Shown here: piece by piece, positions 1,520 to 35,266 of the stretch
Position numbering within the stretch: position 1 is the stretch's first letter
Layout: each line of letters begins with the position of its first letter
Assembly: GCA_030597375.1 (NCBI GenBank)
Contig: JAUVRX010000004.1
Span: forward strand, 1 to 36,149
Direction: 5' to 3'
Source: Acidobacteriota bacterium
Lineage (GTDB): Bacteria; Acidobacteriota; Thermoanaerobaculia; Multivoradales; JAHEKO01
Length of the DNA stretch: 36,149 nt
Notes under the pieces: model-generated
The model's database searches: none
Seen by the model: only the letters and a program-made list of their open reading frames with translations
Told to the model about the DNA's origin: nothing
Program-made: the position numbers and the translations under genes

Positions 1520-3529
1520 CTACAGGGTGTCGGCCACCAGCTCGGCGACGTCCTTGACCTGAAGGGAATCCTCCTTGCCCTCCACCTTGACGGCGTCGTC
1601 CATCATGATCATGCAGAAGGAGCAGGCCGTTGCCACGGTCCCGGCACCGGTGGCTGCCGCCTGCCTCACCCGTGCCAGGTTCATGCGGTCTTCCTCCTCC
1701 ATGTCGTACCACATGTTGCCGCCACCTGCGCCGCAGCAGAAGCTCGCCTTGCGGTTGTACTCCATCTCCACCAGGGACGAGCCACCGACTGCCGCCTTGA
1801 TCAGGTCTCTGGGGGCCTCGTACTCGCCCTCGTAACGGCCCAGATAGCAGGGGTCGTGAAAGGTCACCTTGCCATTGATGGAGGCATCGACCTCGAGTTT
1901 CCCTGCCTTCATCAGCTCACCGATGAACTGTGAGTGGTGCTGGACCCGGAAGTCACCGTCGAAGTCCTTGTACTCGGTCCCCAGCGTTTGCATGCAGTGA
2001 GGACAGGGCGTGACGATGGTCTCGAACTCGTACTGCTTCAGCGTTTCGATGTTCTGCATGGCCAGGGTCTCGAAGAGGTACTCCTCCCCCAGGCGACGCG
2101 CCGAGTCGCCGGTGCAGGTCTCCTCCTCTCCCAGCACTGCGAAGTCCACCCCAGCGTGCTGGAGGATTTTCACGAAAGCTCTCGCCACCTCCTGGTTGCG
2201 CGGATCGTAGGCTCCTGCGCAGCCCACCCAGTAGAGGACATCGGCCTTCTTCTTGTCGGCCATGAGCGGAAGCTCCAGGCTGGCCTCCGACGCCCACTTC
2301 AACCGATCGGAGGCCGGCAGGCCCCATGGATTGCCCCGGTTCGTCATGCCTTCCAGAGCTTCCATCGCCTGCTCTGGTGGCTCACCTTCCGACAGCACCA
2401 GGTAGCGTCGCATATCGGTGAAGGTGGGCACGTGGTCGATGAGAACCGGACAGGCTTCCGTGCAAGCACCGCAACTGGTGCACGACCAGAGCTCCGCAGT
2501 CTTGATTCGACCGCCGATGAGCTCCTCCGGCTCATCCTGTTTCCTGATCGTTCTGGCGTAGAGGTCGTGCCGGATATCGGTGATCAGCTTCATGGGCGAC
2601 AGTGGCCGTCCCGTGGCATGGGCTGGGCAGACGGTCGTGCAACGGGCACATTCGGTGCAGGAGACCGAATCCAAGAGTTGCTTCCAGGTGAATTCGCTCG
2701 CCTGGTGGGCACCGAGTGAAACGTCGTCCAGATCGGCCTCGGGGTCCTCCATGAGCGCGCTGACGTGCATCGGTCTCACGAGCCCGAGGCTCTTGACGTC
2801 GGTGAGGGCCACATTGACGATGACCGCCACCGAGTGGAACATCTTCGTCAGGGGCAGGATGGCGATGAACAGCAGAGAGGTGATGGCGTGTCCCCACCAC
2901 AGCGTGCGCTCGACGCTCGCCCAGGCCGAGTACGACGCCAGTCCCGAAAGAGGCCAGCCGATGAATGAATAGGCGGCCGTGCCTGGCTGCTCGACGGCCA
3001 GGCGAGCCGCTTCGGAGAGGAACCCTCCCAAGACCAGAAGCAGCAGAAACAGGAGAATTCCGGTGTCACCCAGGAGGTTCCCCCGGCCCCGGAAGGAATC
3101 CTGGGGCAGAGGCTCAGGCTTGGAGAAGGCGCGTCGAAAGAGTGCCATCAGGATGCCGACCAGAAGCAGCAGGCCACCGAGATCGTTCAGCGACGCGAAC
3201 CAGGCCGTGTCCTTGGTCGGCAGGTAGCTCGCGAACCATCCACGCGTGACGAAGAAGTCGACCGTAGTGGCGAAGACGAGCTCGATGAAACCCCAGCCCA
3301 GGCAGAAGTGCATGACCGAGGCGTAGGTGAATCTGCGGCTGAGCACCTTGCGCTGGCCGACGCCGAAGGTGAGAGCGTTGAGGAGACTCTCGATGGGCCG
3401 CACCCGGCGGTACTTCTCCTCCTTGCCGATACGAACCGTGAAGAGCAGACGCAAGTTGTAGGCGAAATAGACCAGAGCCAACAGCGCTAGCACGTAGAAC
3501 AGCAGCGGTATGTGATGGGTGCCCTGCAT
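1520..3529 (-). CDS. Membrane-bound (Fe-S)-binding reductase: NarI-like N-terminus + two 4Fe-4S motifs + CCG (heterodisulfide reductase-type) domains; possible ETF:quinone oxidoreductase-like
   Basis: 669 aa; N-terminal TM segments, CTECARCTTVCP and CTSCGACTEACP ferredoxin motifs, CCG-type repeats (DVLYWVGCAGAY..., CPHCMQTLG, FHDPCYLGRYEG, FCCGAGGG). Confidence 0.88.
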   Translation of the reverse strand: MQGTHHIPLLFYVLALLALVYFAYNLRLLFTVRIGKEEKYRRVRPIESLLNALTFGVGQRKVLSRRFTYASVMHFCLGWGFIELVFATTVDFFVTRGWFASYLPTKDTAWFASLNDLGGLLLLVGILMALFRRAFSKPEPLPQDSFRGRGNLLGDTGILLFLLLLVLGGFLSEAARLAVEQPGTAAYSFIGWPLSGLASYSAWASVERTLWWGHAITSLLFIAILPLTKMFHSVAVIVNVALTDVKSLGLVRPMHVSALMEDPEADLDDVSLGAHQASEFTWKQLLDSVSCTECARCTTVCPAHATGRPLSPMKLITDIRHDLYARTIRKQDEPEELIGGRIKTAELWSCTSCGACTEACPVLIDHVPTFTDMRRYLVLSEGEPPEQAMEALEGMTNRGNPWGLPASDRLKWASEASLELPLMADKKKADVLYWVGCAGAYDPRNQEVARAFVKILQHAGVDFAVLGEEETCTGDSARRLGEEYLFETLAMQNIETLKQYEFETIVTPCPHCMQTLGTEYKDFDGDFRVQHHSQFIGELMKAGKLEVDASINGKVTFHDPCYLGRYEGEYEAPRDLIKAAVGGSSLVEMEYNRKASFCCGAGGGNMWYDMEEEDRMNLARVRQAAATGAGTVATACSFCMIMMDDAVKVEGKEDSLQVKDVAELVADTL

Positions 3530-3698
3530 GGCGACCTCCCCGTCAGACTGCCGGTGAATTGGCGTGTGAGGGTAGAGCCGACCAGCAATGACCGGTCCAG
3601 AGCTTGGAATGGATGCGCGCTGATCGCATCAGCGGCGCCCTCAGCCCCACCGTAATGCCCTGTCCCGAGCCATCGTAGCACGGCCCGCCGCGACCGAA

Positions 3699-15992: not shown

Positions 15993-16198
15993 TGCAATGG
16001 ACTCCCGATTCTATACTTTTTGGCTGCTGTCGGAGCAGCCCGAAACATCCGCTCTCGGCTGTGTAGTTTCGACCCCTGTGTGAGACACGCCACATCGCAA
16101 CACCCCCCTTGGGGGCTTACAATATCTACAGGAGTAGAAGCGCAAGCGGCAGAGTCGGTCATCAGGACAACCGACTTCGGAAGCCCGCGAGGCGAGAC

Positions 16199-17839
16199 AT
16201 GAGTATCACCGGCAATCTCCTTACGCTCGAGCTATCGGAACTTCTCCAGTGGCTAGCCCAGGGAAACAAGACCGGCGTCCTCATCGTCGAGAACAAGAAC
16301 ATAGACAAACGCATCTACTTCGACCACGGCACCATCGTCTCATCCGAGTCGAGTGACTCCCAGGAGCACCTCGGGCATTTCCTCATCGAGGAGGGCCTTA
16401 TCGATGAGCCGACACTGGCCCGCGCCCTCAAGCTGCAGCAAGCAACCCAGATCCTCCTCGGTAAGGTGTTGGTGACCCTCGGCGCCATTTCGGAAGAGGA
16501 GCTGAGCCAGGTTCTTCAGCAGAAGACCCGAGAGACGATCTACGAGCTCTTCACCTGGCCCGAAGGCGAGTTCCGATTCGCTCCGGACGAGCTGCCCGAG
16601 TTCCCCATGGTTCCCATCGCCCTCGACGTCACCAACGTGGTCCTCGAGGGGATGCGACGGATCGACGAGGAGAACCACTCTGCGGCTAGCAGGGTAGAGG
16701 ATCAGGCAGCCGTAGATGCCCGTGAGATCGAGGAGACCATGGCTGCCGAGATCCTGGACCCTCTGAGTATCTCTTCGGTCGAGATCCCGAGGGTGGTGGA
16801 TGACACGAGTGCCTCCCGCGAGCGCTCCAGCGTCATCGAAGAAGAGCTCGCAGGCACGATCGCACCGAATGTGAGAGGTTTCTACGAGACCTCGGCCGCC
16901 AAGAGGGACAATCGGGTCAGGCTCCTGGCAGCTGTCGCTGCCGGAGTGATCGTCATTCTCATCGGATTCATGGCCTACTTCTTCTGGCCGGCGGAACCGA
17001 GCGAAGCAGGGACCCAGGTGCCACTGGAGGGTCCTGGGAGGGTCACCGAGTTCGAGCCTGCTCCGACGCTCCAGGAGGTGGGCCTCCTGCCACCGACTGA
17101 GACCGAGGTGGACCCACTGGCAACAGCTGAGATCGAGCCACCGGCGCCCGATGGCGACAACAGGCAGCAAGAAAGGCAACGTAGAACCGAATACGAGCAG
17201 GAGTTGGAAGGCCTTCCCAATCAGCTGCGCAACGCCCAGGCAGAAGCCGAAAAGAGCAAGACTCCAGCCGAAACCCAGCTGGCAAGCAATCCGATCGGGG
17301 ACGACTCTGCCGCCCTGCCGCAGCGAATCGGGCGTACCACGGTCGTCGCACCTCGCGGGGAAACCCAACTCGACACGGAAGAGGTCGTGCCCGCCAACGA
17401 TGCTGCTTCCAGCCTGCTCGACGCAGACTCCGAAAGCTCCGACGAAGAGTCCGACTCGGGATCCACCCTTTCTCCTGCCCAGCTCGACTCACAGTCCGAG
17501 GCGTCGGCCGTCGAGATCGAGCCTGAGCAACACAAGGCGGCCAGGGGCGATCTGGTAGAGCCCGGGCCAGGGGTCACGGCACCTACAATCGTCAAGCGGC
17601 CGCAACCCCGCTACCCCGAGGCTGCTCGACGAATCGGCCGTAGTGCGGTCGTGGTCCTACGCCTTCTGATCGATGAAGAGGGAAACGTGGCCGAGATCCA
17701 GCAGGTCGGTGCCAAGGCAGGCATGGGCTTTGACAGGTCGGCCATCATGTCGGCGGAAAAGACCGCCTGGAAGCCCGCCATGATGGACGGTGTCGCGGTC
17801 AAGATGTGGGTCGATCTGCGGATCGAATTCCAGCCCTGA
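16199..17839 (+). CDS. DUF4388 (PatA-N-like) - TM - TonB C-terminal domain fusion
   Basis: Start at MSITGNLLTLELSELLQWLAQGNKTGVLIV; DUF4388-type N-term, single TM (LLAAVAAGVIVILIGFMAYFF), acidic/Ser-rich linker, TonB-like C-term (PTIVKRPQPRYPEAARRIGRSAVVVLRLLIDEEGNV...AWKPAMMDGVAVKMWVDLRIEF). Confidence 0.85.
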   Translation: MSITGNLLTLELSELLQWLAQGNKTGVLIVENKNIDKRIYFDHGTIVSSESSDSQEHLGHFLIEEGLIDEPTLARALKLQQATQILLGKVLVTLGAISEEELSQVLQQKTRETIYELFTWPEGEFRFAPDELPEFPMVPIALDVTNVVLEGMRRIDEENHSAASRVEDQAAVDAREIEETMAAEILDPLSISSVEIPRVVDDTSASRERSSVIEEELAGTIAPNVRGFYETSAAKRDNRVRLLAAVAAGVIVILIGFMAYFFWPAEPSEAGTQVPLEGPGRVTEFEPAPTLQEVGLLPPTETEVDPLATAEIEPPAPDGDNRQQERQRRTEYEQELEGLPNQLRNAQAEAEKSKTPAETQLASNPIGDDSAALPQRIGRTTVVAPRGETQLDTEEVVPANDAASSLLDADSESSDEESDSGSTLSPAQLDSQSEASAVEIEPEQHKAARGDLVEPGPGVTAPTIVKRPQPRYPEAARRIGRSAVVVLRLLIDEEGNVAEIQQVGAKAGMGFDRSAIMSAEKTAWKPAMMDGVAVKMWVDLRIEFQP

Positions 17840-33813: not shown

Positions 33814-34566
33814 ATGAATTGGAGAACCATCGCTGAACGCTCTGCCTGGACGATCGGCATCTCTCTAGTGTTGATCTGGATCGGCTTCTGGATCCATGGC
33901 AGGGTTGGCAGCCGGTCCAGCATCGAGGACTTCGAGCAGGCGCGGGCCACCCTGCCGGCAGCCGAGGACTCCCCCCCGCAACCTCGGGAGGCCCAGCCTC
34001 AGCCCTCGCCTGCCGACCTACCGGCGAGTCCCCCCATCGAGCCCCGCAAGCTGCCGACCGATCTTCCTGTGGACTACAGCCTCTGGGATGAGGGTCGAAT
34101 CAGGGAATACGAGGAGAGCCTGGAGCACGATTTCGGCCTGCCTCTGGCCATTCTCAGGATTCCGAAGATCGATCTGCAGGTGCCCCTACTCGAGGGCACT
34201 GATGATCTGGCACTCAACCGGGGAGTCGGCAGAATCATCGGGACGGCACGCCCGGGTGAGCTCGGTAACCTGGGCATCGCGGGTCATCGCGACGGATTCT
34301 TCCGCGGTCTCAAGGAACTGGGTCAGGGCGATACCATCGAGCTCGACACCCTCACCGCGACCGACATCTATCGGATCGACGAGATCACCATCGTCACACC
34401 CCAGGACGTTCAAGTGCTGGAGCACCAGGCCGTGCCGACCCTGACGCTGGTGACCTGCTATCCGTTCTATTTCGTCGGCCATGCGCCCAAGCGTTACATC
34501 GTCAGTGCAACCCTGGTGGAATCTGATAGCGTTAGTGCTTCAAGTGCGGATACGGCCTCCCAGTGA
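33814..34566 (+). CDS. Sortase, class D-like
   Basis: 250 aa; N-terminal TM anchor, Pro-rich linker, LRIPKIDLQVPLLEGTDDLALNRGVGRI, GNLGIAGHRDGFFRGL (His), TLTLVTCYPFYFVGHAPKRYIVSA (Cys, Arg). Confidence 0.92.
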   Translation: MNWRTIAERSAWTIGISLVLIWIGFWIHGRVGSRSSIEDFEQARATLPAAEDSPPQPREAQPQPSPADLPASPPIEPRKLPTDLPVDYSLWDEGRIREYEESLEHDFGLPLAILRIPKIDLQVPLLEGTDDLALNRGVGRIIGTARPGELGNLGIAGHRDGFFRGLKELGQGDTIELDTLTATDIYRIDEITIVTPQDVQVLEHQAVPTLTLVTCYPFYFVGHAPKRYIVSATLVESDSVSASSADTASQ

Positions 34567-34594
34567 GGAGGTGGAGAGGACGGTTCAGGATCGT

Positions 34595-34608
34595 ACGCCT
34601 TCGGGCGT
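34595..34608 (+). other. Short stable hairpin acgcc-TTCG-ggcgt (C(UUCG)G tetraloop)
   Basis: Perfect 5-bp stem with UUCG loop between the sortase gene and its putative substrate gene. Confidence 0.6.
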
Positions 34609-34650
34609 TGCTCAGCCGTTGAAACAGAAGGCAAACGAAAGGAGAGACGA

Positions 34651-35178
34651 ATGAAAGCTAGACACATGCTGATGCTGGCCGTCGGCTTCGCCCTGATCCT
34701 CGGGATCGCCGGGCAAGTCCAGGCTCAGGAGGAAGGAACCAAGGTGGAGATCGGTGAAGGACGGGTGATGCATCGCTCGGGCAATACCCTGATCGTGGAT
34801 GTCGCCAAGGGCACGCACCTCGGAATCCAGAGGTTCGACTTGAGCAAGGTCAAGCACCTGACGTTCTACAAGTATGGCAAGGAGATCCAGCCCCAGGACC
34901 TCAAGAAGGACGACATGGTCACCGCGTATGCGGACAGCGCAGCAGCACCGCCTGTCACGATTACGATGAGCGAGGTGGTGGAGCTCCAAGCCGCTCCGGC
35001 ACCGGCACCTGCACCAGCACCTGCACCAGCGCCGGCACCAGCTGCCCGACCGACTCCGGCCCCGGCACCTGCACCAGCGGCACTGCCCTCGACCGGCAGC
35101 CAGCTGCCGCTGCTTCTGGTCCTGGCCGTCGCTTTCCTGGCCATCGGCCTCACACTGACGGTGATCCGCAGATTCTAG
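34651..35178 (+). CDS. LPXTG-type sorting-signal protein (putative sortase substrate)
   Basis: 175 aa; signal peptide MKARHMLMLAVGFALILGIAGQVQAQ, short globular region, Ala-Pro repeat linker, C-term LPSTG-SQLPLLLVLAVAFLAIGLTLTVI-RRF (motif, hydrophobic stretch, basic tail); good SD aaaggagag. Confidence 0.9.
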   Translation: MKARHMLMLAVGFALILGIAGQVQAQEEGTKVEIGEGRVMHRSGNTLIVDVAKGTHLGIQRFDLSKVKHLTFYKYGKEIQPQDLKKDDMVTAYADSAAAPPVTITMSEVVELQAAPAPAPAPAPAPAPAPAARPTPAPAPAPAALPSTGSQLPLLLVLAVAFLAIGLTLTVIRRF

Positions 35179-35199
35179 GGTTCCCTACCAGAACCATTC

Positions 35200-35217
35200 C
35201 CGGCAGGATCCTGCCGG
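35200..35217. repeat. 18-bp perfect palindrome ccggcaggatcctgccgg
   Basis: Self-reverse-complementary sequence directly upstream of the terminator hairpin. Confidence 0.9.
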
Positions 35218-35221
35218 TTCA

Positions 35222-35247
35222 GGCCGCGCCAACAGCGCGGCCTTTTT
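35222..35247 (+). terminator. Rho-independent terminator for the sortase/LPXTG genes
   Basis: ggccgcgc-caaca-gcgcggcc followed by TTTTTCTT; 8-bp GC stem. Confidence 0.92.
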
Positions 35248-35266
35248 CTTGGTCGCGTCGACGACG

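Follow-up and report, generated by a model that had tools for sequence, protein, structure and literature searches.

Organization of the sortase locus

The window, that is the whole stretch of DNA analyzed here, comprises 36,149 bases and corresponds to one whole contig of a 3.01 Mb genome (323 contigs, 92% complete). It contains two neighboring genes on the forward strand that encode a sortase of 250 aa and, after a gap of 84 bp, a secreted protein of 175 aa with an LPXTG-type sorting signal (Table 1). The ORF coordinates agree in this respect with a preliminary description of the same DNA, which had also claimed that the pair is closed by a strong terminator. An intrinsic terminator is indeed found 3' of the pair: at 35221-35243 a 9-bp stem is followed by a T-run, and the region folds with -32.6 kcal/mol (z -5.7). 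A nitrilase and a DUF481 barrel were considered as additional parts of the system and rejected. We take both to be bystanders because they are found next to the pair only within the genus. Elsewhere in the window, a single ORF (16109-17839) combines a DUF4388 N-terminal part with a TonB C-terminal domain at its end.

Table 1 Features of the sortase-substrate pair and of the related Myxococcota partners. Positions without a prefix refer to the window.
Feature	Position	Strand	Remarks
Class D-like sortase with a single N-terminal membrane helix and predicted periplasmic catalytic domain (residues about 105-237)	33814..34566	+	250 aa
Pre-catalytic motif PVDYSLWDEGRIREYEESL (residues 85-103)	34066..34122	+	conserved
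Catalytic His158 (AGHRD)	34285..34287	+	invariant
Catalytic Cys215 (TLVTCYPF)	34456..34458	+	invariant
Catalytic Arg227 (PKRY)	34492..34494	+	invariant
Dedicated substrate	34651..35178	+	175 aa
Signal peptide (residues 1-26, ending in QVQAQ), no lipobox	34651..34728	+	sequence; AlphaFold2 helix 2-23
Small beta domain (residues 31-95), six strands	34741..34935	+	AlphaFold2, block pLDDT mostly 87-95
Pro/Ala-rich disordered stalk (residues 96-144)	34936..35082	+	sequence; AlphaFold2
LPSTG motif (residues 145-149)	35083..35097	+	predicted cleavage Thr148/Gly149
Hydrophobic helix and RRF tail	35104..35175	+	AlphaFold2 helix 152-174
Intrinsic terminator 3' of the pair	35221..35251	+	GC-rich hairpin, 9-bp stem, T-run
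Myxococcota linker-only partners	L206:2206-2790, L207:2164-2574, L208:1028-1297, L209:2132-2533		

The sortase and its nearest class

With 99.2 bits against PF04203 (E 1.8e-28, cut-off 26.6) the first protein of the pair belongs to the sortase superfamily, and it also scores above the cut-off of TIGR01076 (85.2 bits for 39.35). His158, Cys215 and Arg227 are all present and are invariant in two alignments, one of 20 relatives and a second set of 44. The complete set of catalytic residues that had been claimed for this sortase is thus confirmed.

Class D is the nearest class by NCBIfam, PDB sequence search and Foldseek, yet the protein stays under the NCBIfam cut-offs: its best NCBIfam match, the SrtD model NF058671, gives 134.4 bits for a cut-off of 140, and the class D model NF033746 gives 125.6 bits for a cut-off of 165. 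The earlier designation of the enzyme as class D-type therefore holds for the nearest class but not for membership by these cut-offs. Two relatives (L106 and L002) exceed the NF058671 cut-off. The closest solved structures by sequence are 2ln7 from B. anthracis and 4d70, the sortase D of C. perfringens. The latter is also the best PDB match of the AlphaFold2 model (pLDDT 86.8) in the Foldseek search, with class C sortases as the next-best structural neighbors. We rejected class GN (TIGR03784) as an identity for the window sortase, which scores 80 bits for a cut-off of 158.25 and is separate from the GN sequences in the tree. This maximum-likelihood tree is based on 131 columns and has long branches, and its deep order is thus weakly constrained; in it the GN sequences form their own starred clade, four Bacillota class D sequences cluster in a starred group away from the diderm sequences, and the window sortase falls in a group of 28 (support 86/87) in which Acidobacteriota dominate.

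Ahead of the catalytic domain the sortase carries a conserved motif. Out of the 89 sortases compared, 45, including that of the window, contain this motif in the form D-x-SLW-[SDA]-x-x-RI-x-x-Y, and it was found in none of the class GN or Bacillota class D sequences of this set. Its tryptophan, Trp91 in the window sortase, lies 67 residues ahead of the catalytic His, and exactly this spacing is found in 40 of the 45 motif carriers. Class C sortases have a lid, and by analogy the SLW motif may be a lid or a docking element.

One sortase from a genome of the same order (G026; L021:1387-2163, reverse strand) has the sequence TLVTSFPF, in which Ser replaces the catalytic Cys; the His and Arg are kept. 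A sorting-signal neighbor was not detected at this locus.

The substrate protein

The second protein consists of a signal peptide, a small beta domain, a stalk and a sorting signal. The stalk is without secondary structure and has the lowest pLDDT of the AlphaFold2 model. The sorting signal has all of its elements, as had been proposed: the LPSTG motif, the hydrophobic helix and RRF follow each other in this order. In a protein search this anchor scores just below the cut-offs of PF00746 (17.3 for 20) and TIGR01167 (14.5 for 15.9), in a six-frame search of the genome it scores slightly above (20.4 bits for 20), and a profile built on the tails of its own family recognizes it with an E value of 2.9e-13. 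Across 37 substrates Pro146 and Arg173 are invariant and Thr148 is nearly so.

No Pfam family was found for the beta domain and Foldseek gave no significant match (best E 0.098). The weak matches obtained with the model hint at an OB/beta-barrel-like fold. A likeness to DUF5666 that was spotted by eye had no Pfam support and was discarded. Similarly, no known substrate family of Pfam or NCBIfam was above cut-off for this protein, the best being EF0750_LPXTG with 25.5 for 47.

Host envelope and pairing within the order

A genome profile search showed that the host encodes LpxC (E 3.6e-86) and Omp85/BamA (E 1.1e-52), and the window itself encodes both OmpH and a DUF481 barrel. Because of these proteins we take the host, an acidobacterium, to be a diderm. 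This is consistent with the outer membrane that the preliminary description attributed to it, and the lineage is likewise one of diderm Acidobacteriota and not of monoderms. The host's own MurE contains the motif DNPR, which we take to be a signature of the meso-DAP-adding enzyme type.

The host genome contains one sortase, and a six-frame search of it with the Gram_pos_anchor profile gave one match above the cut-off, the window substrate. With the profile of the family tails no second sorting signal was found in this genome up to an E value of 10. The genome-wide scan for LPXTG proteins thus leaves the window substrate as the lone recognizable sorting signal. One sortase, one recognizable target and adjacent genes together make this a dedicated dyad, with the reservation that a target may have been missed at 92% completeness.

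We also read the sortase loci of the same order, in which 21 of 59 genomes contain a sortase of any type. Two systems coexist in this order: class GN sortases with VWA-type targets, and class D-like sortases with small secreted LPXT[GA] proteins. Loci of the first type are L013, L017, L018, L019 and L008; two of the order's GN sortases were scored and gave 198-199 bits for a cut-off of 158. All of the 14 order genomes with an intact class D-like sortase, the window's own genome counted, have an adjacent sorting-signal gene, so that no close relative was found to have such a sortase and to lack the LPXTG neighbor. Both genes are kept in all three members of the genus, with 83-87% identity for the substrate and 74-78% for the sortase. 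A substrate-profile search of the order was positive in 16 of the 59 genomes, including the carriers of the class D-like pair; the positives without this pair, G024 and G051, are both marginal (E about 1e-4). In all, the single sortase, the single signal, the conserved adjacency and the LpxC and BamA of the host bear out the compact dedicated dyad in a diderm that had been suggested for this locus.

Related loci beyond the order

We scanned 84,980 prokaryotic species and used the best 80 loci. These come from Acidobacteriota, Proteobacteria (mostly Gammaproteobacteria), Deltaproteobacteria (Myxococcota by taxonomy) or unnamed records, and these best 80 relatives beyond the order are all in diderm phyla. 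Using a strict detector, which requires a protein with [LM]PxT[AG], a helix and a basic tail within 700 bases of the sortase, we found a neighbor of this kind in 60 of the 80 loci. On the strand of the sortase it lies downstream in 49 loci and upstream in 8, and in 3 loci it is on the opposite strand. The same motif, helix and basic tail occur in 61 of 1,082 mechanical ORFs near the sortase versus 1 of 3,760 farther off (Fisher p 3e-39, a descriptive value since the loci are related). The other 20 loci have no neighbor that fits this detector, in some cases only because the motif varies or the contig ends. In three of the 20 the adjacent protein has a PDS[GA] variant, L074 has LPVAG, L054 has LPQTG at a distance of 1.9 kb, and L036 and L083 are close to the end of a contig. 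This leaves about 13 of the 80 best loci with neither a visible adjacent substrate nor an obvious excuse. The PDS[GA] dyads (L087:4487-5107, L096:4478-5137 and L105:4478-5128) are from Terriglobia (Terriglobus, Bryocella) and keep the helix and the basic tail; it is possible that this drift of the motif goes along with an altered sortase specificity.

In a separate draw of 247 Acidobacteriota genomes, 50 match the window-type sortase profile and a neighboring sorting signal is present in 21 of the 29 loci read. At position five of the motif, Acidobacteriota have Gly in 15 cases and Ala in 10, and Pseudomonadota have Ala in 30 cases and Gly in 2. Most of the 22 genomes reached via the loci contain exactly one sorting-signal tail. 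In one acidobacterial locus (L089:2445-3149 and 3355-3657) a single sortase is accompanied by two adjacent substrates, of which one is a linker-only lipoprotein and the other bears a domain. Cultured carriers among the matches are Terriglobus roseus, Edaphobacter, Granulicella, Parahaliea and Shewanella marina.

Lipoprotein partners in Myxococcota

We surveyed 237 Myxococcota genomes and considered the sortases scoring over 210 bits as the closest (n=4). All four adjoin a protein of about 90-100 aa made of a lipobox signal peptide, a Pro/Glu linker and a tail with LPKTA, a helix and Arg (Table 1). No convincing globular Pfam domain was found in these four partners. Their lipoboxes read LACAS, GACAS or TACAT, and there is therefore no Asp after the Cys. 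This organization suggests that the Myxococcota linker-only lipoproteins are candidate tethers between the outer membrane and the wall in the manner of Braun's lipoprotein (Lpp), because two anchors and a spacer alone leave hardly another function. Provided that the wall is the second anchor, these partners would be functionally like Lpp, with which they would share an N-terminal lipid (predicted here), an extended spacer and, as proposed here, a C-terminus bonded to peptidoglycan. Lpp is helical and is attached to peptidoglycan by L,D-transpeptidases. The enzyme family and the linkage are thus different, and the Myxococcota spacer is Pro-rich instead of helical. The window substrate also differs from Lpp in having no lipobox, and its reading as a tether therefore leans on the relatives. 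Its analogous role could be that of a wall-bound spacer whose beta domain touches something else.

Proposed mechanism and alternatives

The reading that we favor, and consider fairly probable, is that the window encodes a one-enzyme, one-substrate periplasmic sortase system in which the LPSTG motif is cleaved after Thr and this Thr is most likely joined to meso-DAP. After export both proteins would stay in the inner membrane, where the N-terminal helix would anchor the sortase and the C-terminal helix the substrate. Cys215, together with His158 and Arg227, would cut between the Thr and the Gly of LPSTG, and the new C-terminal Thr would be passed to an amine, most likely that of the meso-DAP side chain in lipid II or nascent peptidoglycan. 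This should yield a small beta domain that is linked covalently to the wall through a Pro/Ala stalk of about 50 residues and that could serve in the periplasm as a spacer or as a tether directed towards the outer membrane.

By analogy, m-DAP peptidoglycan is a probable acceptor and the likeliest one; it should be available in this host because its own MurE carries DNPR. In B. anthracis, the SrtC enzyme of the basI-srtC operon cuts LPNTA between Thr and Ala, and the m-Dpm of cross-bridges is the nucleophile (PMC3297441). Many relatives of the window pair use an LPxTA motif.

The dedicated pair could instead use a lipid or some other amine of the envelope as the acceptor of its substrate, for example phosphatidylethanolamine, resulting in membrane or surface anchoring, as proposed for rhombosortase and GlyGly-CTERM proteins. 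The sequence names no acceptor, and in V. cholerae, also a diderm, the processed C-terminus of VesB carries an ethanolamine or glycerophosphoethanolamine mass (PMC6219818). We nevertheless regard a lipid acceptor as unlikely, given that the nearest characterized class D enzyme uses m-Dpm (PMC3297441) and that the Myxococcota substrates already have a predicted N-terminal lipid, which would make a second lipid redundant. Less probable again is hydrolysis alone, by which the sortase would free the substrate as an unattached periplasmic protein. Water can resolve acyl-enzymes and the dyad encodes no acceptor, but cutting a membrane-anchored precursor just for release would offer hardly any advantage over a normal signal peptide, and it is difficult to see why substrates that are linker-only lipoproteins should be set free.

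Polymerization of the substrate into a pilus-like or chain structure, as by class C and some class D-type enzymes, would fit with class C sortases being the next-best structural neighbors and with the SpaA-type pilin genes that adjoin Bacillus plasmid class D sortases. It appears very improbable here in view of the single small substrate, of Pfam scans that revealed no isopeptide-pilin domain and of the beta domain, in which a conserved Lys nucleophile was not found (the best Lys column reaches 14 of 37). We give the least credit to a non-functional pair, decaying or left from lateral acquisition: the spread is patchy (21/59 order genomes with any sortase, 50/247 Acidobacteriota by profile match) and one relative has Ser for Cys, but the frames are intact, the catalytic residues invariant and the terminator present, and both genes are kept throughout the genus.

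Attachment to m-DAP peptidoglycan can be extended to the relatives in a tentative way, which we would not put at even chances. A diderm-specific class D-like branch in Acidobacteriota, Gammaproteobacteria and some Myxococcota might bond dedicated stalk proteins to peptidoglycan. In Myxococcota, where these proteins are minimal lipoproteins, the sortase would thereby produce a counterpart of Braun's lipoprotein that links the wall with the outer membrane.

Comparison with known systems

Sortases are best known for protein display on Gram-positive walls. The dyad described here occurs repeatedly in Acidobacteriota and Gammaproteobacteria and in a few Myxococcota, and therefore sortase anchoring of the Gram-positive type probably also fastens proteins within two-membrane envelopes. 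The preliminary description had seen the novelty in the role of the substrate and in its acceptor. In the open-licence literature we found no description of class D-like sortases of Acidobacteriota or Gammaproteobacteria, and the window pair is apparently part of a broad diderm branch that has not been described so far. Branch members may already be annotated, since the NCBI SrtD model captures some of them. The sortase chemistry is already established; the new elements are the diderm class D-like branch, the small stalk substrates, the SLW motif and the linker-only lipoproteins. With this second, broader diderm branch, the purpose of a sortase behind an outer membrane would become directly testable because there are cultured carriers among the matches, usually with a single substrate. 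Provided that its product is bound to the wall, the system would represent a new covalent route of periplasmic tethering beside that of the L,D-transpeptidases.

Cassettes of a sortase and a single target are known in diderms from class GN (TIGR03784) and its marine proteobacterial sortase target protein (TIGR03788). Class GN is a dedicated sortase that is strictly confined to Gram-negatives and whose VWA-type LPXTG targets are encoded by adjacent genes (PMC3237569). The class GN target is however a large VWA-type protein, whereas in the window substrate a stalk carries a small beta domain. Rhombosortase/GlyGly-CTERM and exosortase/PEP-CTERM resemble the window pair in the C-terminal motif, helix and basic tail, in the dedicated membrane enzyme and in their occurrence in diderms, and they show adjacency when a single target exists (PMC3237569). 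Their enzymes and motifs are unrelated to those of the window pair.

The Gram-positive counterpart of the window dyad is the basI-srtC operon of B. anthracis. The two have in common a class D-like sequence and fold, a dedicated substrate gene and an LPxT[A/G] motif, and an m-DAP acceptor is plausible for the window pair as well. SrtC and BasI differ in their monoderm host, their role in sporulation and the domain of the substrate, and the window sortase differs from SrtC in its scores under the NCBIfam class D cut-offs, in its DxSLW motif and in its position apart from the Bacillota class D sequences. Another Gram-positive dyad of the same layout was observed on Priestia plasmids, where a class D sortase lies beside a small LPxTA protein (L115:1873-2409 and L123:1224-1754); these LPxTA proteins share a Cys-containing domain (CSDF...ERLDGWGNKVDDGIPCE).
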